DNA from: Litorilituus sp.
GTDB lineage: Bacteria > Pseudomonadota > Gammaproteobacteria > Enterobacterales > Alteromonadaceae
Length of the DNA: 64,000 nt
Reading direction: 5' to 3'
Assembly: GCA_030754235.1 (NCBI GenBank)
Contig: JASMAS010000024.1
Span: 19,398 to 83,397, forward strand
The notes beneath the pieces were generated by a model. That model ran no database searches. It was not told the origin of the DNA and saw nothing but the letters and a program-made list of their open reading frames with translations. Shown here in pieces: positions 975 to 10,046 of this stretch (position 1 is the stretch's first letter; each line of letters begins with the position of its first letter). Both the position numbers and the translations under genes were made by a program.

Positions 975-1472
975 TTAAAAGGTGGTAATCAGCCAATCTT
1001 TATTATCACTAAAATACAGTGTTTTTACCTTTCCTTTACCTTCTATGTTTACCATGTTTATTTGTGTTGGCCAAAGTCCTCTAAGTGAACCATTAAAAAG
1101 CTTAATGCCTTTTAGCTCGGTCGGCAATGAGGTAGCTTGATAAACCCAAAAGAATTTACCTTCTACTTCATGACCGATGGCCGCTAAAGTTAGTTTTTTG
1201 TCTGCTAAAGTTCGAATCAGAAATTGTTTGGCAATATAGTCTGCAAATTGTTGTTGTGTTTTTTTTGAATTAAGAATGTCCGCGTTTTTATCAAATAGTG
1301 ATTGCACACCATGCTCGGTGTCATGTAGGTAAAACCTATGCATGACTTCTAGCTGACCAGAATGCTTATTAAATAATACTGTGGTTTCAGCGGCTTTTTG
1401 TTGGTGGGCAAAAGTTGAATGTGAAAACACCAATAAAAAAGCCGAAAAAATAAGTAAAAAGCTTTTAGGCAT
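975..1472 (-). CDS. Secreted DUF6702-like protein
   Basis: Signal peptide, HRFYLHDTEHG region; stop/start overlap with the upstream M1 peptidase. Confidence 0.6.
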   Translation of the reverse strand: MPKSFLLIFSAFLLVFSHSTFAHQQKAAETTVLFNKHSGQLEVMHRFYLHDTEHGVQSLFDKNADILNSKKTQQQFADYIAKQFLIRTLADKKLTLAAIGHEVEGKFFWVYQATSLPTELKGIKLFNGSLRGLWPTQINMVNIEGKGKVKTLYFSDNKDWLITTF

Positions 1473-3928
1473 TAGTTATCCTTTTTCTTTTCTTCGTCAT
1501 CACTTTTGAGCTTGGTTTTAATGTCTTCCATGATATCGCGTTTAACCTTATCTATACTTTTCTTCGCTTTATATGCTTCAACACGCGAAGGGATAATTTG
1601 ACGGGGGTAATGATTATTTTGTACATCTACATCAGCTGTTTCCCAGCCTGGATCTACGGCGACACTGGTAAGTTCTTTATCTTTGTTAGTGACAATGAGT
1701 TTACGCACCGCTTTAGGCGTACGACGCCAAATTTCTGCAGGAATATATTGGCTTTCTTTACTGCCATCTGTGAAGGTCAACTCAAGTAGAATAGGCATAA
1801 TTAATCCGCCTATATTTGAAAATTCTAACACATAGTAGTTCTTATCTTCTTTGAGGGCACGTTGTAAAGTTTTTCGTTCCCAAGGTTTGAGACCCTTAAT
1901 AAATTTATTATATTGATTACGCTCTTTATTGGTTACTGTGAAACGATCATTTTCATCATAAAAATCTCTAATATCAGGATTACGATCGACCCACAGTTCT
2001 TTTCCTTCAGCCTTGTTGCGTTCAACAAAAAGTGAAGAAGGTTTATCTAGTTCAATTTGACGTAAGCGCCCATAATCAATATCAGGGTTTTTTGTATCTA
2101 AGCGCATTTTGTAAACTTTATCTATTGAAATGTCTACGTGATCGGTTGAGTAGAACCAACCGCGCCAAAACCAGTCGAGATCAACGCCCGAAGCTTCTTC
2201 TATTGTTCTGAAAAAATCTGACGGCGTAGGGCGTTTAAACTTCCAACGTTGAGCATACTCTTTAAAGGCAAAGTCAAATAACTCACGACCTAAAATCACT
2301 TCGCGTAAAATATTCAACGCAGCAGCAGGCTTAGTATAAGCATTTGGCCCTAAACGAAGTACGCTGTCTGACTGGGTCATAATAGGTACTTGGTTTTGTG
2401 ATTTCATGTAGCCGGTAATATCACGGGGTTCAACACCCCATGGAATAGTAGGATCCCACTCACGACCCGCCACACCGTCTAAAAAGCTATTTAAGCCTTC
2501 GTCCATCCAAGTCCACTGGCGCTCGTCTGAATTAACAACCATAGGGAAATAGATGTGCCCCACCTCATGAATAACAACTCCTATTAAGAAGCGTTTTTCA
2601 GCCTGAGAATAAGTACGAGAACCATCATCTTGTAATTCAGTACGCGGGCCATTAAATGTGATCATAGGGTACTCCATACCACCTACAGGGCCATTAACTG
2701 ATTGTGCCGTAGGGTAGGGGTAATCAAACGAGTAGCGTGAATACACTTCCATTGTATGTATAATTGACTCCGTTGAATATTTTTTCCAGAGGTCACCACC
2801 TTCTTTCGGGTAAAAAGACATTGCCATTACTTGTGGCATATCGTGACCACCTTGCTGATAGCCTTTAGCATCCCACATGAACTTTCGTGATGAAGCCCAA
2901 GCGAAATCACGCACTTTTTCCGCTTTAAATATCCAAGTCTTACGTTCCTTGGTACCCTCTTTTTCGTTTTCTAATGCCTCTTTTTCTGTCACTATAAATA
3001 CGGGACGTTTAGCCTTCTTTGCTTGTGCTAATCGTTTACGTTGCTTTTTGCTGAGGACCTCTTTAGGATTCGTCAATACGCCGGTAGAGCTGACAATATG
3101 ATCGGCAGGCACATTAATCTCTACTTCATAGTCACCAAACTCAAGTGTAAACTCACCTCTACCTAAAAATTCTTTATTGTTCCAACCTTCATAATCAGTA
3201 TAGGCATGTAAGCGGGGAAACCATTGCGCTAATAAGAAAATGTCGTTGCCACCTTGGCGGGCATCATCAGCAAAATGTTCATAGCCCGAGCGTGCAGATA
3301 CGGCATCTTCTTCAACAATGTTAAAAGCGAAATCAATTGAAAACTCAACATCGTCACCTGACTTCAATGGTTTAGGTAAATCAATTCGCATTTGTGTGCC
3401 AACCACGGTAAAGTCCATCGCTTGGTCACGGTGGTCTTTTACGGCATCGATTTGATAACCTAGCTCATTATCAGCCATAAATTGTTGGCGACGTAATTCA
3501 CCTAAGCTAATTTTAGCTGGCGTTTGGGTATCACCTGCTTTGGTGTATGGGCCTCTACGACCAATACCCGCAAAATTATTTGCGGCATTTGCTATTGAAT
3601 CATCTTTAAAAATGTTTTGGTCTAACTGTACCCATAAATACTTAAGTCTATAGGGTGAGTTGTTTTGATAAGTGATTTTTTCGCTACCTGTTAGACGACG
3701 CTTTTCTTCATCAAGTGAAACTTTAATTTTATAGTCTACTTGTTGTTGCCAATAGTTTTCACCGGGCTCACCTGCAGCGTTGCGATATACGTTAGGGGTT
3801 GGCAAAACCTCTTCAAGTTGTCTGAACTTGTCTTCAAAGTCACCCTTGCTCTGCTTAACGGCGGCGGCACTGGCGGTATAAGCTAAAGTCAATGACAAAA
3901 GCAGAGCGGTAATTATGGAATTTTTCAT
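1472..3928 (-). CDS. M1-family metallopeptidase (secreted)
   Basis: Signal peptide; VIHEVGHIYFP (HExxH-like HEVGH) and WMDEGLNSFLDG motifs, GGMEYPM exopeptidase-like motif. Confidence 0.85.
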   Translation of the reverse strand: MKNSIITALLLSLTLAYTASAAAVKQSKGDFEDKFRQLEEVLPTPNVYRNAAGEPGENYWQQQVDYKIKVSLDEEKRRLTGSEKITYQNNSPYRLKYLWVQLDQNIFKDDSIANAANNFAGIGRRGPYTKAGDTQTPAKISLGELRRQQFMADNELGYQIDAVKDHRDQAMDFTVVGTQMRIDLPKPLKSGDDVEFSIDFAFNIVEEDAVSARSGYEHFADDARQGGNDIFLLAQWFPRLHAYTDYEGWNNKEFLGRGEFTLEFGDYEVEINVPADHIVSSTGVLTNPKEVLSKKQRKRLAQAKKAKRPVFIVTEKEALENEKEGTKERKTWIFKAEKVRDFAWASSRKFMWDAKGYQQGGHDMPQVMAMSFYPKEGGDLWKKYSTESIIHTMEVYSRYSFDYPYPTAQSVNGPVGGMEYPMITFNGPRTELQDDGSRTYSQAEKRFLIGVVIHEVGHIYFPMVVNSDERQWTWMDEGLNSFLDGVAGREWDPTIPWGVEPRDITGYMKSQNQVPIMTQSDSVLRLGPNAYTKPAAALNILREVILGRELFDFAFKEYAQRWKFKRPTPSDFFRTIEEASGVDLDWFWRGWFYSTDHVDISIDKVYKMRLDTKNPDIDYGRLRQIELDKPSSLFVERNKAEGKELWVDRNPDIRDFYDENDRFTVTNKERNQYNKFIKGLKPWERKTLQRALKEDKNYYVLEFSNIGGLIMPILLELTFTDGSKESQYIPAEIWRRTPKAVRKLIVTNKDKELTSVAVDPGWETADVDVQNNHYPRQIIPSRVEAYKAKKSIDKVKRDIMEDIKTKLKSDDEEKKKDN

Positions 3929-4557
3929 ATTATTTACGTTATCGTTTTATTTATATTGCTTGTTTGGAGGAAGTCTTAGAGGTCATCTTATAAACTTATA
4001 CTCAGTTTTGGTAAGATAGGTTGAAATCACGACGTTTGTTCTATTGTATTTATTTTATTGCCAACAGTTTTATTAAATTGGCGCATCTTTGTTTTTCATG
4101 CAGTAGTGATTTATATTCCATCTTAATATTGTGATAATATAACATCGTTATTGTGGGTGCAATATTTTAGAAAAATTCAGGCGATTTTTGGGGTATTAAT
4201 CAGGAGAAGTATGGAAGGCTGTTACTTTCAGCAATCAATTGCTGGTATGTGAACATTTTTCAACTCTAATGGATACCTTACATTCATAAATCTGTCAGCT
4301 TAGCTTGACATTAGCGAGCTGAGAAAAAATAAAATGACTTAAACATAGTTATGCTATATTTCATTAATGTTGAGCGGTTATCAGTTCACTAATGAACTCC
4401 TAAAGGTCTAGCTTAAAGGACTTACATGCCTTACCTTTAAGCCTTTTAATTCTCGCTAAGTGCTCAATGAATTAATGGACTTGCTATAAACTTAATCGTT
4501 ATTGCTATTGGGCACTTTTATGAAAATACAAGGTTATCATTGACAGTTATGACACTG

Positions 4558-4923
4558 TTATTCTGGCATTTGAGAAGAGTGATGTTCGATAATCTTCCAT
4601 TCACCTTCTAGTAATTGATAGACATAACTAAAGCGCGCTTTAATGTGTGTACTGTCTTTTAATGAAAATGAATAAATACCTGAATTAATAACAAGTTCAT
4701 TAAATATTCGAATATTTTGTTCTATTAATTCCCCTTTGGGTTCATTAGCGAGGAATTGCACAAAGTAATCTTCGATTTCATCATGATTGTGGCGTATTTC
4801 ATTAGAAATGGTTGGCAATAAAATGGCATCGCTTGCATATAAAGCCGTAAGCGCTTTTGGATTTCCTGAGCTTAATGCTTCATTCCACAAGTTAAATAGT
4901 TTACTTACCTCTTGATTTGACAA
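4558..4923 (-). CDS. NTF2-like SgcJ/EcaC-family protein, iota-carbonic-anhydrase-like (HHSSxMP C-terminus)
   Basis: 121 aa; LYASDAILLPTISNEIR...SGIYSFSL...ARFSYVY...WKIIEHHSSQMPE matches the CaMKII-AD/iota-CA style fold and HHHSSxMP signature in all but the first His. Confidence 0.7.
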   Translation of the reverse strand: MSNQEVSKLFNLWNEALSSGNPKALTALYASDAILLPTISNEIRHNHDEIEDYFVQFLANEPKGELIEQNIRIFNELVINSGIYSFSLKDSTHIKARFSYVYQLLEGEWKIIEHHSSQMPE

Positions 4924-4945: not shown

Positions 4946-6184
4946 TTATTTTTTAAGGTTCGCCTCTTTAAAGGCGATCAATGAAGGGGGAAAGGCAGCC
5001 AACATCGTTAAAAACAATAATATACCAAGGGTATAAAGGGTCTTAATAGACAAAATGTTCACCCCAACTGACAGGCTGTATTGTGTTAATAAATAGGTTT
5101 TTGAAAAAACCAAGCCAAGTGTTAGAAATATGAGTGAAATTGCAGTGCTTATGGTGGTGATTAACAATGCTTCAGCTTCTATAATCCAGTAGATATAAAA
5201 TGGTGACGCACCCAGTATGCGCAGTAGTTGAATTTCTTGTCGACGTTCTCGAATTGATGCTATTAACATTGCGCTTAAACCAAAGAGCGTTGAGATGATC
5301 ACTAATGCGGAAACGAGTTGTAAGGTGTTTTCAGCAACGGTAAGTGTTTGCCAAAGCTGTGCAAGTGCTACACCGGGCAGAATTGCCATTAACGGTTCGT
5401 GGGGTGCAGTATTAATTTTTCGCTGAAATTGAAACGTTTTCATTCGAGATTTTAAACTCACCATGACTGCTGTGACGGATTTGGGCTGTAGCTCATGATA
5501 TTTAATGTGTTGAAGGGGAGTATTAGCGGAGAATTTATTACGAGCTAGTGTAGGTAAATGTAAAACTTCAAGCCCTTGCAAACTAACATGCAACGTCTGA
5601 TCAACAGGGGTTCCTGTTGCCTGTAATATCCCTACAATACGAAAGGGGTTATCTTTATGATTAGTAAAACTTGTGCGACCTATACCATGGGCTAAGATAA
5701 TTTGATCGCCGATTTGATAATTCAATTTTCTCGCTATTTCTGCACCAATAACTATATCAAATATTCCCGCAAATGGATTACCATGGGCAAAGCTAAGGGG
5801 CTGTTTTGTCCCATAACTAAAATGTTTAAAATATTCTGTAGTTGTCCCTAATACCTTATAGCCTTGATGTGAGTCGCCTAAAGAGATCGGAAATGACCAA
5901 CTCACTGAAGGGTCTTTGCTCAGCTCTAGATAAGATTGCCAACTCATATTGTTGGTGGGTTTGCCCATTCTAAACACGGAGTACAGTAATAAGTTTAGCT
6001 CTCCACTGCGAGCACCTACAATTAAATCAACACCAGAAACACTACTAGCAAAACTGGCTTTGGCTTGATCTCTAATATGTTCAACACCAAACATGACTAG
6101 CATACTGATGCTCAATGCAACGGTGGTTAACAGCACAGAGCCTTTACGATATAACAAGCTTTTTGACGTGAGTTGAAAAAACAT
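4946..6184 (-). CDS. ABC transporter permease, FtsX/MacB-like
   Basis: 412 aa, N-terminal TM, periplasmic domain, three C-terminal TMs with IRERRQEIQLLRILGAS motif. Confidence 0.85.
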   Translation of the reverse strand: MFFQLTSKSLLYRKGSVLLTTVALSISMLVMFGVEHIRDQAKASFASSVSGVDLIVGARSGELNLLLYSVFRMGKPTNNMSWQSYLELSKDPSVSWSFPISLGDSHQGYKVLGTTTEYFKHFSYGTKQPLSFAHGNPFAGIFDIVIGAEIARKLNYQIGDQIILAHGIGRTSFTNHKDNPFRIVGILQATGTPVDQTLHVSLQGLEVLHLPTLARNKFSANTPLQHIKYHELQPKSVTAVMVSLKSRMKTFQFQRKINTAPHEPLMAILPGVALAQLWQTLTVAENTLQLVSALVIISTLFGLSAMLIASIRERRQEIQLLRILGASPFYIYWIIEAEALLITTISTAISLIFLTLGLVFSKTYLLTQYSLSVGVNILSIKTLYTLGILLFLTMLAAFPPSLIAFKEANLKK

Positions 6185-6867
6185 TAGTTTATAACTTTTG
6201 CCGAATTTATTTGAGCCAGTGCTATGCTTATGTCAAAGTGCTGGCATAAGCTCATGTCATGGCTTACAAAAAGTAAAGTTGAACCATATTTTTTACATAA
6301 CGAGGTTAACAGTGAAATAAAATTATCCCTTGAAGCTTGATCAAGCGAGGAAGTTGGCTCATCTGCAATGATGAGTTTTGGTTTGTTTATCAAGGCTCGA
6401 GCGATACTTACTCGTTGTTGTTGTCCTACACTCAATTGATTAACTGGTCGATACCAGTCTTGTGATGTGAGATTTAGAGTAAGCAGAAGAGCGTGTACTT
6501 TTGGTAAAAAATCTGCCTCGTGAGCACTAGAGGAGAAATGCCTTGCTAATTTAATGTTATCAATAGCATTTAAATACTCTATTAAATTAAATTGCTGGAA
6601 AATATAACCGATATGCTCTGCTCGGTATTTGTCCTTTTGGCGAGTACTCATCATGTCAAATGACTTACCTAACACTCTAATATTACCTAAATTAGCTGTT
6701 TGTAAACCACAAATAAGGTTAAGCAAAGTTGATTTTCCACTGCCAGAAGGGCCATGAATAAATAACTGTTCACCTTGTTTTACATGCCAGTGAACTATTT
6801 TTAAAATGTTTTTTTTAGGACTGATTGAGTAAGAAAACTCAACATTTTTCATTTCGATGGCATTCAA
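6184..6867 (-). CDS. ABC transporter ATP-binding protein (LolD/MacB-like)
   Basis: Walker A GPSGSGKSTLLN, signature LSVGQQQRVSIARAL, Walker B LIIADEPTS. Confidence 0.92.
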   Translation of the reverse strand: MNAIEMKNVEFSYSISPKKNILKIVHWHVKQGEQLFIHGPSGSGKSTLLNLICGLQTANLGNIRVLGKSFDMMSTRQKDKYRAEHIGYIFQQFNLIEYLNAIDNIKLARHFSSSAHEADFLPKVHALLLTLNLTSQDWYRPVNQLSVGQQQRVSIARALINKPKLIIADEPTSSLDQASRDNFISLLTSLCKKYGSTLLFVSHDMSLCQHFDISIALAQINSAKVIN

Positions 6868-6901: not shown

Positions 6902-6922
6902 TAGTGTTATAATATAACACTA
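6902..6922. promoter_or_regulatory. Zur-box-like palindrome TAGTGTTATAATATAACACTA
   Basis: 21-bp palindrome perfect around one central base; contains TGTTATAnTATAACA, the core of the gammaproteobacterial Zur consensus; lies 34 bp upstream of the ABC ATPase start and ~80 bp upstream of the divergent DUF3299 gene. Confidence 0.75.
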
Positions 6923-7001: not shown

Positions 7002-7670
7002 GTGTGTTCGATGAAGTTATTGGCTCTATGGTGTTGCTTATTTATTTTGTTGGGATGTGAAAAAACGAAATCACAAGATGGTATTCCTAGCATATCGGCA
7101 GGAGAAACCTCAATGACCTCTGAGCGTATGGGTAGCATGCTACCTAATAATCAACCAACAATCACATCAAATAAATTTATGACTATAGCGTGGGAAAACC
7201 TTATTCCAAAAGAAGATTTAGAGGCAATATTAAACCCTCCAGATTATATTGTTCAAGTGGTGGATGGCTCAGTTGAAGATCAAATTACTAATGCAGTTCA
7301 AAGTAGCATGAACAATGATCAAGTTGCTGGAGAAGTATACGAGCAAGCATTGAACTCAACCACCATAATTAAGGCTATGGATGGTAAGTACATACGTATT
7401 CCTGGTTTTGTTGTTCCCGTTGAGTTTACTAATGAAAAGCAAATTTCCAGTTTTTTTTTAGTCCCTTATTTTGGTGCGTGTTTGCATATGCCACCTCCTC
7501 CCCCTAATCAAATTATTTATATAGAGTCAGAGCAGGCTATTTCGCTGGAAAGTTTATACGATCCTGTTTGGGTATCGGGAAAGCTATCAGCGGAACTGTT
7601 TGAAGACCAAATTGCTACTTCAGCCTATACCATGCAACTTGAGAAGTTAGTTTTGTATTACCCGAAGTAA
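7002..7670 (+). CDS. DUF3299-domain lipoprotein
   Basis: Lipobox LLGCEK; YIRIPGFVVPVEF...FFLVPYFGACLHMPPPPPNQ typical of DUF3299; start may be ATG at 7011. Confidence 0.82.
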   Translation: MCSMKLLALWCCLFILLGCEKTKSQDGIPSISAGETSMTSERMGSMLPNNQPTITSNKFMTIAWENLIPKEDLEAILNPPDYIVQVVDGSVEDQITNAVQSSMNNDQVAGEVYEQALNSTTIIKAMDGKYIRIPGFVVPVEFTNEKQISSFFLVPYFGACLHMPPPPPNQIIYIESEQAISLESLYDPVWVSGKLSAELFEDQIATSAYTMQLEKLVLYYPK

Positions 7671-7756: not shown

Positions 7757-9088
7757 TTACTGAAATATTAATCGTTTTGCAGCACCTGGAATATGGTGAA
7801 TATTTTCGCCATCAAAAACTTGATGGCCATTGACCCATGTTGATTTGATTGTTGATGAAAAGGTGTGACCATCAAATGGTGTCCAAGCACAATGATATCG
7901 ACTATTTTTATGTGTTTGCTGCGTTGTTTTTTGTGGGTCAACTAAGACGATATCTGCAAAGTAGCCTTCACGTAAAAAACCACGGTCAAGAATCTTGTAA
8001 CGTATTGCAGGATTATGGGCGACTTTTTCTACTACTTGATTTAGGCTGATTTTTCCTTGTGCCACATGATCGAGTAATGAGAGTAATGCACTTTCAACTA
8101 AAGGCAAGCCTGCGGGTGATTGAATATAATCTACTTGCTTTTCTGCCCATGTATGCGGCGCATGATCGGTGGCAATAATATCAATTTGACCTGTGTGTAG
8201 AGCATTCATCAGAGCATCTCTATCGGCGCGATTTTTAATGGCAGGATTACATTTAATCAAATTACCTTTTGCTTGGTAATCCTCTTCGCTAAACCATAGA
8301 TGATGAACACAAGCTTCTGCCGTGATATTTTTGCCAGTGATTGATCCAGGCTCAAATAGTGATAGCTCTTTTTCGCTAGTAATATGCAATACATGCAATT
8401 GAGAGCCAAATTTTTTTGCTAAATTTACTGCATAAGAAGATGAAGTATAACACGCCTGCTCATCTCGAATAAGAGGATGATCATGAATATCTAGAGTTGT
8501 TTTTAATTGCAGTAAGCGTTTTTGGTTCTCTGCAATAATAGGGCTACTTTCACAGTGGGTGACAATGATCGCAGGACTTTGTGCAAAGATATTGTCTAAC
8601 GCTTTGGGGTGCTCTACCAGTAAATCACCTGTTGATGCACCCATAAAAACTTTAACACCGCAGTGCTTTTTGGGGTCGAGTTTTTTAATTTCATCTAGGT
8701 TTGCCTCTGTTGCGCCAAGGTAAAAAGAATAGTTTGCCAATGACATTTGCTGAGCGATGGTAAATTTAGCTTCGAGTGCATTAATATCTGTTGTTGCTGG
8801 GCTTACATTTGGCATCTCCATAAAGCTTGTGATCCCGCCGGCAATTGCAGCGCTAGATTCGGATGCAATGGTACCTTTGTGGGTTAATCCCGGCTCCCTA
8901 AAGTGTACCTGATCATCAATCATTCCGGGCAACAACAAATTTCCAGATGCTTCAATCACTTTATCGTTAGCTGTCGCTGAAATCTGGGTAGCTATTTTAT
9001 CAATTCTTTCATTTTTAATACGGAGATCAGCAACATATTGCTCACCTTCATTTATCAGTTGTGCATTTTTGATCAAAGTAGTGTTCAC
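7757..9088 (-). CDS. Dihydroorotase, class I-like amidohydrolase with QxH instead of HxH
   Basis: LPGMIDDQVHFREPGLTHKGTI, GVKVFMGASTGD, VTHCESS, LHVLHITSEKE, ATDHAPHTW. Confidence 0.88.
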   Translation of the reverse strand: MNTTLIKNAQLINEGEQYVADLRIKNERIDKIATQISATANDKVIEASGNLLLPGMIDDQVHFREPGLTHKGTIASESSAAIAGGITSFMEMPNVSPATTDINALEAKFTIAQQMSLANYSFYLGATEANLDEIKKLDPKKHCGVKVFMGASTGDLLVEHPKALDNIFAQSPAIIVTHCESSPIIAENQKRLLQLKTTLDIHDHPLIRDEQACYTSSSYAVNLAKKFGSQLHVLHITSEKELSLFEPGSITGKNITAEACVHHLWFSEEDYQAKGNLIKCNPAIKNRADRDALMNALHTGQIDIIATDHAPHTWAEKQVDYIQSPAGLPLVESALLSLLDHVAQGKISLNQVVEKVAHNPAIRYKILDRGFLREGYFADIVLVDPQKTTQQTHKNSRYHCAWTPFDGHTFSSTIKSTWVNGHQVFDGENIHHIPGAAKRLIFQ

Positions 9089-9164: not shown

Positions 9165-9731
9165 TTATTGCCAAGACAAAACATTTTCTGTAGCTGTTAA
9201 GCTAACTGCACCTTGTTGTGAATCAGTAACCCATATTGCACTAATCTTTTTGATGTTTGGGTGGTACTCAAATATAGTGACCGCCGCAGAAGAAATGTCA
9301 GTTAATGAGAGGCAGTGTAATGTGTAATCGATGATAACTTCGGTGTGCTCTGTATGAAATGTATGGTTATTGTTAACATCGTTAGTTAAAGGTAACAATG
9401 CGTCCATATTAATGTGAGTATTAATTAATTTACACGACGCTTTAGATAAGGTGATTATGTTATTAATTTCAGTAAAAGTTTTTTTGATTTTATTAAGTTT
9501 AGCTATTTCTTCTGGTGTTTGAGCACGATGCTCAAAACCAACTAGACTATACGCGGGAGCCGTTAAGCTGATTAATAAGTAATTAGTTTCAATAGCTAAG
9601 GTTAATTGAGCCAAGCCATGGACATGTGCATTTTGACTATGATTTGAATGTTCATTTGCTATTGAGGGGCTCGTTATAATTAAATATATGAGTAAAGAAA
9701 TTTTACACATAATAGTAAGTAAAGCGTGCAT
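9165..9731 (-). CDS. DUF2796 / ZrgA-family zinc uptake-associated periplasmic protein
   Basis: Signal peptide then HSNHSQNAHVHGLAQLTLAIE, characteristic of DUF2796. Confidence 0.82.
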   Translation of the reverse strand: MHALLTIMCKISLLIYLIITSPSIANEHSNHSQNAHVHGLAQLTLAIETNYLLISLTAPAYSLVGFEHRAQTPEEIAKLNKIKKTFTEINNIITLSKASCKLINTHINMDALLPLTNDVNNNHTFHTEHTEVIIDYTLHCLSLTDISSAAVTIFEYHPNIKKISAIWVTDSQQGAVSLTATENVLSWQ

Positions 9732-10026: not shown

Positions 10027-10046
10027 TGTTATGTTATAACATAACA
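10027..10046. promoter_or_regulatory. Zur-box-like palindrome TGTTATGTTATAACATAACA
   Basis: 20-bp perfect palindrome; close to the Zur core TGTTATAnTATAACA (one mismatch); located between the DUF2796 gene and fadH. Confidence 0.65.

Follow-up and report, generated by a model that had tools for sequence, protein, structure and literature searches.

A putative Zur-controlled second dihydroorotase of the QxH family in a zinc uptake gene cluster of Litorilituus sp.

The window analysed here, the whole stretch of 64,000 nucleotides from Litorilituus sp., carries at positions 7757..9088 of the minus strand a gene, pyrC2, for a QxH-family dihydroorotase of the putative Zur-linked PyrC2 type. The open reading frame has a GTG start preceded by AAAGGAG and encodes 443 amino acids. 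The protein reaches 678.8 bits with the NCBIfam dihydroorotase model NF006688 (PRK09236), and since this exceeds the cut-off of 535 bits, we regard 7757-9088 as a real gene. All other dihydroorotase, allantoinase and hydantoinase models score below NF006688 for this protein.

The gene is surrounded by components of a zinc uptake system. As the sequence-only reading had noted, it lies on the same strand as a DUF2796/ZrgA gene and 76 bp downstream of it, measured from the zrgA stop. This zrgA gene (9165..9731, minus strand) encodes a putative periplasmic zinc-binding protein and is the first gene of a putative zrgA-pyrC2 operon; it matches Pfam ZrgA (PF10986) with 125.1 bits at a cut-off of 27.4, and the NCBIfam model ZrgA_Zn_trans with 102.8 bits, which is under the cut-off of 185 bits. 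On the other side of pyrC2 there is a DUF3299 lipoprotein-like gene (7002..7670, plus strand; PF11736, 155.1 bits), probably of the ZrgE/PA4066 type, an equation that we infer. It is followed by genes for a ZrgC/LolD-like ABC transporter ATPase (6184..6867, minus strand; PF00005), found at the same position in the related loci L128, L129 and L142, and for a ZrgB-like ABC permease of the MacB/FtsX type (4946..6184, minus strand; PF02687, PF12704). Judged by their Pfam matches, zrgA, the ATPase and the permease together constitute a zrg zinc uptake cluster, and the same set in the same order is present in Colwellia psychrerythraea ND2E (L128), whose protein is 76% identical and whose boxes are comparable. 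A small SnoaL-like protein (4558..4923, minus strand; PF13474/PF08332) travels with the cluster and has homologues in L128, L138, L140 and L142. Its recurrence in zrg/PyrC2 clusters of marine gammaproteobacteria suggests a role in zinc limitation.

The link to zinc turned out to be stronger than originally claimed, as exact Zur-box-like palindromes are present on both sides of pyrC2. One exact copy of the palindrome TGTTATRNTATAACA is located at 6905-6919 (TGTTATAATATAACA), in the intergenic region from which the ABC ATPase and DUF3299 genes diverge; two further exact copies, which overlap, lie at 10027-10046 (TGTTATGTTATAACATAACA), some 300 bp ahead of the start of zrgA. Hence pyrC2 is flanked by two near-perfect predicted Zur operators, and both the zrgA-pyrC2 unit and the divergent ABC/DUF3299 units are predicted to be Zur-controlled. 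A genome of 3.3 Mb with this base composition would be expected to contain about 0.3 exact sites. The double box also precedes zrgA-pyrC2 in C. psychrerythraea ND2E and the dihydroorotase gene at L068. The genome-wide scan was restricted to sites with no more than one mismatch, because control matches outnumbered true ones once two mismatches were allowed. A Fur-family protein is encoded in the source genome at G000:C59:88427 and looks, by eye, like a Zur rather than a Fur.

The scan also revealed some further candidate sites. The only exact box outside the window (G000:C94:23340-23354, L082) is located before a gene that reads as a MerC-like membrane protein, and tandem near-match boxes at G000:C109:4294-4334 (L087) precede a small gene and a gene read as TonB-dependent-receptor-like. 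Within the window, a one-mismatch box at 4130-4144 precedes an M1-type peptidase gene (1472-3928, minus strand) with an intact HEXXH-18-E motif, which is followed by a DUF6702 gene (975-1472, minus strand). A second M1 paralog with HEXXH-18-E adjoins the Zur-like gene and has a two-mismatch box (G000:C59:86500-91000, L244). The regulon may include a Zur-linked pair of M1 peptidases not described so far.

The dihydroorotase of the zinc cluster is not the only one in the genome. A search for a second, canonical pyrC, proposed together with the sequence-only reading, was successful: a class II pyrC with the motif DWHVHLRDG is located at G000:C55:5800-6816 (TIGR00856, 459.9 bits). Because of this separate canonical gene, 7757-9088 is the second dihydroorotase of the organism, and the alternative that it is the only one, which would have spoken against a backup role, is ruled out. 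C. psychrerythraea ND2E (G025) even possesses two QxH dihydroorotases of the same clade, L128/L067 and L066, which are 76% and 67% identical to the one in the window; of the two, only L128/L067 belongs to a zrg cluster in which Zur boxes are evident.

The feature that had drawn attention to the protein, a glutamine in place of the first histidine of the HxH motif, was read again in the motif GMIDDQVHFREPG. Gln60-Val-His62 stands here in the position of the canonical HxH pair of the alpha site, with the Gln60 codon at 8909..8911 of the minus strand (coordinates computed from residue 60 and the ORF start at 9088). The statement that the lysine, histidine, histidine and aspartate motifs remain was equally correct: His62, Lys146, His178, His235 and Asp308 are all kept. 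The loss thus concerns one of six ligands, and the protein does not show the loss of zinc-binding residues by which a zinc-independent enzyme would be recognized.

Comparison with relatives makes clear that Gln60 is no local peculiarity. Of 121 relatives gathered in three samplings, 120 retain the glutamine and 119 the full set Q-H-K-H-H-D. One of the two exceptions is an HxH relative with 43% identity (L007); the other (L076, G134:C21:43628-44962) is a degenerate copy that keeps the glutamine, with the bridging lysine changed to asparagine and the aspartate to alanine. Its genome also has a class II pyrC, and L076 is likely a decaying or repurposed copy. A local mutation, chance or a sequencing error can be ruled out as the origin of Gln60, the glutamine being the fixed state family-wide. 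The presumption that DDQVH-type sequences form a known subfamily was right, this subfamily being NF006688. The QxH motif even reaches beyond it, as a protein with 34% identity (L078, G189:C58) has DSQVH and all other ligands. On the basis of these alignments, Gln60 is an ordinary trait of a whole enzyme family.

Members of this family often occur without a second dihydroorotase. NF006688 exceeds its cut-off in 35 of the 274 gammaproteobacterial genomes surveyed. Among the 33 family-carrying genomes outside the clade with Zur boxes described below, three also have a class II pyrC and one (L104) has another complete class I enzyme. Accordingly, at least 29 of the 33 have no recognisable dihydroorotase besides the QxH enzyme, hydantoinase-like proteins at 22-25% identity (in a few genomes) being left out of this count. 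Stenotrophomonas maltophilia D457 and Aeromonas species are examples. Other class I paralogs can be dismissed as hidden housekeeping dihydroorotases, since 25 of the 26 examined lack the ligand set; the second complete class I enzyme among them was found in G231 only. Most of the class I paralogs in the comparison genomes lie beside an ATCase-like ORF, i.e. they are of the inactive PyrC' type.

One might nevertheless ask whether 7757-9088 encodes a related cyclic amidohydrolase, for example a catabolic enzyme for pyrimidines or hydantoins, that came to lie in a zinc operon by chance. Two Pseudomonas loci (L166 and L178) point in this direction, where the QxH gene is located beside genes that look, by eye, dihydroorotate-dehydrogenase-like and N-carbamoyl amidase-like. 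Both genomes also have a class II pyrC, no Zur box was seen at either locus, and this context is perhaps that of a catabolic role. For the protein from Litorilituus, however, such an explanation is highly improbable. Its NF006688 score is far over the cut-off and above those of the allantoinase and hydantoinase models, many genomes have no recognisable dihydroorotase other than a family member, and dihydroorotase activity has been shown for the Zur-linked Pseudomonas PyrC paralog, as Haas 2009 states with reference to Brichta 2004 (PMC2770081).

The trait that sets the gene in the window apart from the bulk of its family is not the glutamine but its association with Zur boxes. Among 80 named loci, the 3.5 kb upstream contain a Zur-like box with at most one mismatch in 16 of the 20 relatives with at least 62% identity, versus one of the 60 with at most 58%; four of the 20 have no box at this threshold in their upstream regions. 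Most of the named loci came with 6 kb of upstream sequence. For the loci of the class survey, a flank of 1.5 kb was scanned, and the contrast therefore rests on the named loci. The relatives with at least 62% identity form one clade (support 99-100) that includes the 7757-9088 protein and is called the Zur clade in the following. A class II pyrC co-occurs in all 11 sampled genomes of this clade versus two of 18 others, both Pseudomonas. The clade also has its own residues: Leu156 is present in 25 of 25 members versus 6 of 94 other proteins, Glu159 in 25 of 25 versus 1 of 94. Both fall in the stretch matching the flexible catalytic loop named for the Porphyromonas gingivalis enzyme (LGSSTGNMLVD). 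Neighbouring genes within the clade resemble, by reading, zur, those for gamma-carbonic anhydrase (gamma-CA), COG0523 and threonyl-tRNA synthetase, folE2 and hisI2. It is thus well supported by these comparisons that predicted Zur control and co-occurrence with a class II pyrC mark one clade with its own loop signature, and that the glutamine is not this mark.

Two Vibrio species of this comparison deserve a remark. In V. mexicanus (L284, G338:C3) and V. aestivus (L285, G341:C77) the class II pyrC has the same frame break near codon 60-70, which we considered as natural proof that PyrC2 suffices. We rejected this, since the rest of the gene is under strong purifying selection (64 synonymous versus 3 nonsynonymous codon changes). 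The break may be a shared sequencing artefact, or the gene may be frame-shifted and read across the break.

Taken together, the family score, the second pyrC, the near-perfect operators, the encoded Zur-like regulator and the associations at the level of the clade support the reading of 7757-9088 as a Zur-linked backup PyrC. We consider it probable that 7757-9088 codes for a catalytically active QxH-family (NF006688) dihydroorotase, induced as a second copy during zinc starvation, in addition to the class II PyrC that serves as housekeeping enzyme. That the product is active, that Zur represses the gene and which metal the enzyme uses are what we infer here from sequence. As long as zinc is plentiful, zinc-loaded Zur would bind at 10027-10046 and 6905-6919 and keep zrgA-pyrC2 and the divergent ABC/DUF3299 genes off. 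When zinc falls, ZrgA and the ABC pair would import zinc, and PyrC2 would sustain de novo pyrimidine synthesis. The chemistry would be that of other dihydroorotases, with a carboxylated Lys146 bridging the metal site, His62 and Asp308 on the alpha side and His178 and His235 on the beta side, and Gln60 would replace one histidine of the alpha site without abolishing metal binding.

In reviews on zinc, PyrC2 figures as a backup enzyme independent of zinc, a view that originated from the absence of zinc-binding residues. For the enzyme in the window, the corresponding proposal had been that the metal site on the alpha side is weakened or lost through Gln60, leaving one zinc or another metal, and that the enzyme is kept for this reason. 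A conserved ligand of the alpha site is indeed replaced, and the Zur-linked copies were recruited from the QxH family and not from class II. Moreover, Haas 2009 proposed zinc independence of the Zur-linked PyrC paralogs (PMC2770081), and the mononuclear type I dihydroorotase of Aquifex aeolicus is kinetically competent (PMC3880350), although its single zinc sits in the very alpha site that is altered here. Against this, the same glutamine is equally fixed in sole dihydroorotases without Zur boxes, and the DDQVH member from P. gingivalis (PDB 2GWN), which is 50% identical, is given as Zn(alpha,beta) in a 2025 table of all dihydroorotase structures (PMC12524618). The table marks single-site occupancy, the A. 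aeolicus entries being denoted as Zn(alpha), and according to the same source there is no peer-reviewed description of the P. gingivalis structure (PMC12524618). Because of the homologous two-zinc structure and the genomes with a sole QxH enzyme, the glutamine alone is disfavoured as a means of zinc sparing. The claim that it marks a low zinc requirement or a different metal found no support, we judge the proposal built on it to be rather unlikely, and the assumed zinc independence of the family looks doubtful.

A second possibility is that the cell gains more enzyme and not a different one, i.e. that a zinc-dependent paralog is induced solely in order to raise the total dihydroorotase capacity or to compete better for scarce zinc. 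Five of the six ligands are kept and 2GWN was obtained with two zincs, which agrees with this view, and Haas 2009 considers it, too, for further Zur-linked paralogs whose sites are intact (PMC2770081). However, the choice of the QxH family over a second class II gene suggests an intrinsic difference, and the fixed loop changes of the Zur clade (Leu156, Glu159) likewise speak for more than a mere increase in dosage. This explanation is conceivable, but we would not expect it to prove right. Even a little less probable than the proposal based on Gln60, and offered tentatively, is the idea that QxH dihydroorotases are metal-frugal by nature: the glutamine would weaken the alpha site so that one metal or non-zinc metals suffice, the family would hence be the preferred source of Zur-controlled backups, and the marine clade would then have tuned the catalytic loop by Leu156 and Glu159. 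The advantage of the backup PyrC under zinc starvation may lie in higher zinc affinity, in metal promiscuity or simply in more enzyme. The zinc-sparing claim for PyrC2 is now directly testable, since Zur-clade and Zur-free members of one family provide a clean comparison set.

Backup PyrC paralogs in Zur regulons were already known, as the sequence-only reading had noted: Haas 2009 described Zur-regulated PyrC paralogs (PyrC2) in gamma- and betaproteobacteria (PMC2770081). The novelty that it had seen in the combination of a zinc cluster with a PyrC paralog is thereby lost, this combination having been described for other members of these classes (PMC2770081). In P. aeruginosa, PyrC2 can substitute for its lost paralog and is induced 37.9-fold when zinc is depleted (PMC10393844; PMC4542158), whereas a proteome study found the PyrC2 protein little changed under zinc depletion (PMC11761036). 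NF006688 exceeds its cut-off in 33 of 80 Pseudomonas genomes, a gamma-CA gene lies directly upstream in 27 of 30 Pseudomonas loci, and a Zur box is present in all eight extended loci; in seven of these it immediately precedes a folE2-like gene that is located upstream of pyrC2. These PyrC2 proteins, linked to folE2 and gamma-CA, belong to the same family and have the same Q-H-K-H-H-D set as the protein in the window. Like Pseudomonas PyrC2 (PA5541 type; Haas 2009, Pederick 2015), the latter is a second dihydroorotase beside a class II PyrC in a Zur-linked operon, PA5541 itself being likened by family and gene order. The differences are that the Pseudomonas proteins are only about 50% identical, are encoded behind folE2 and gamma-CA and not behind zrgA, and mostly have Met/Asp at positions 156/159. 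The marine clade and Pseudomonas come out as separate clades in the free tree, but the AU test does not reject a tree that joins them (p-AU 0.49), so that Zur control may have originated either twice independently or within one joint clade.

More closely related are the Zur-linked PyrC paralogs of Vibrio, Marinomonas, Pseudoalteromonas and Amphritea, which belong to the same clade (62-76% identity) and likewise have Zur boxes and a class II pyrC in the genome. Their neighbours, in contrast, are zur, gamma-CA, COG0523, folE2 or hisI2 and not zrgA. The P. gingivalis dihydroorotase shares the QxH motif, with 49.5% identity over 420 residues, and differs in being a Bacteroidota protein for which, to our knowledge, no link to a zinc cluster is known. 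Its crystal form (2GWN) contains two Zn (PMC12524618). V. alginolyticus is among the species with Zur-linked PyrC paralogs listed by Haas 2009 (PMC2770081). The surrounding genes resemble the zrgABCDE operon of V. cholerae and V. parahaemolyticus and PA4063-PA4066 of P. aeruginosa, with ZrgA, an ATPase and permease of the MacB/LolD type, a DUF3299 protein and Zur boxes. The paper on V. cholerae ZrgA mentions no dihydroorotase. The Litorilituus cluster differs in that zrgA is followed by a dihydroorotase gene, that it is divided into two units and that it contains an additional SnoaL-like gene. The direct linkage of zrgA and pyrC2 is thus a local arrangement of two known parts of the Zur regulon.
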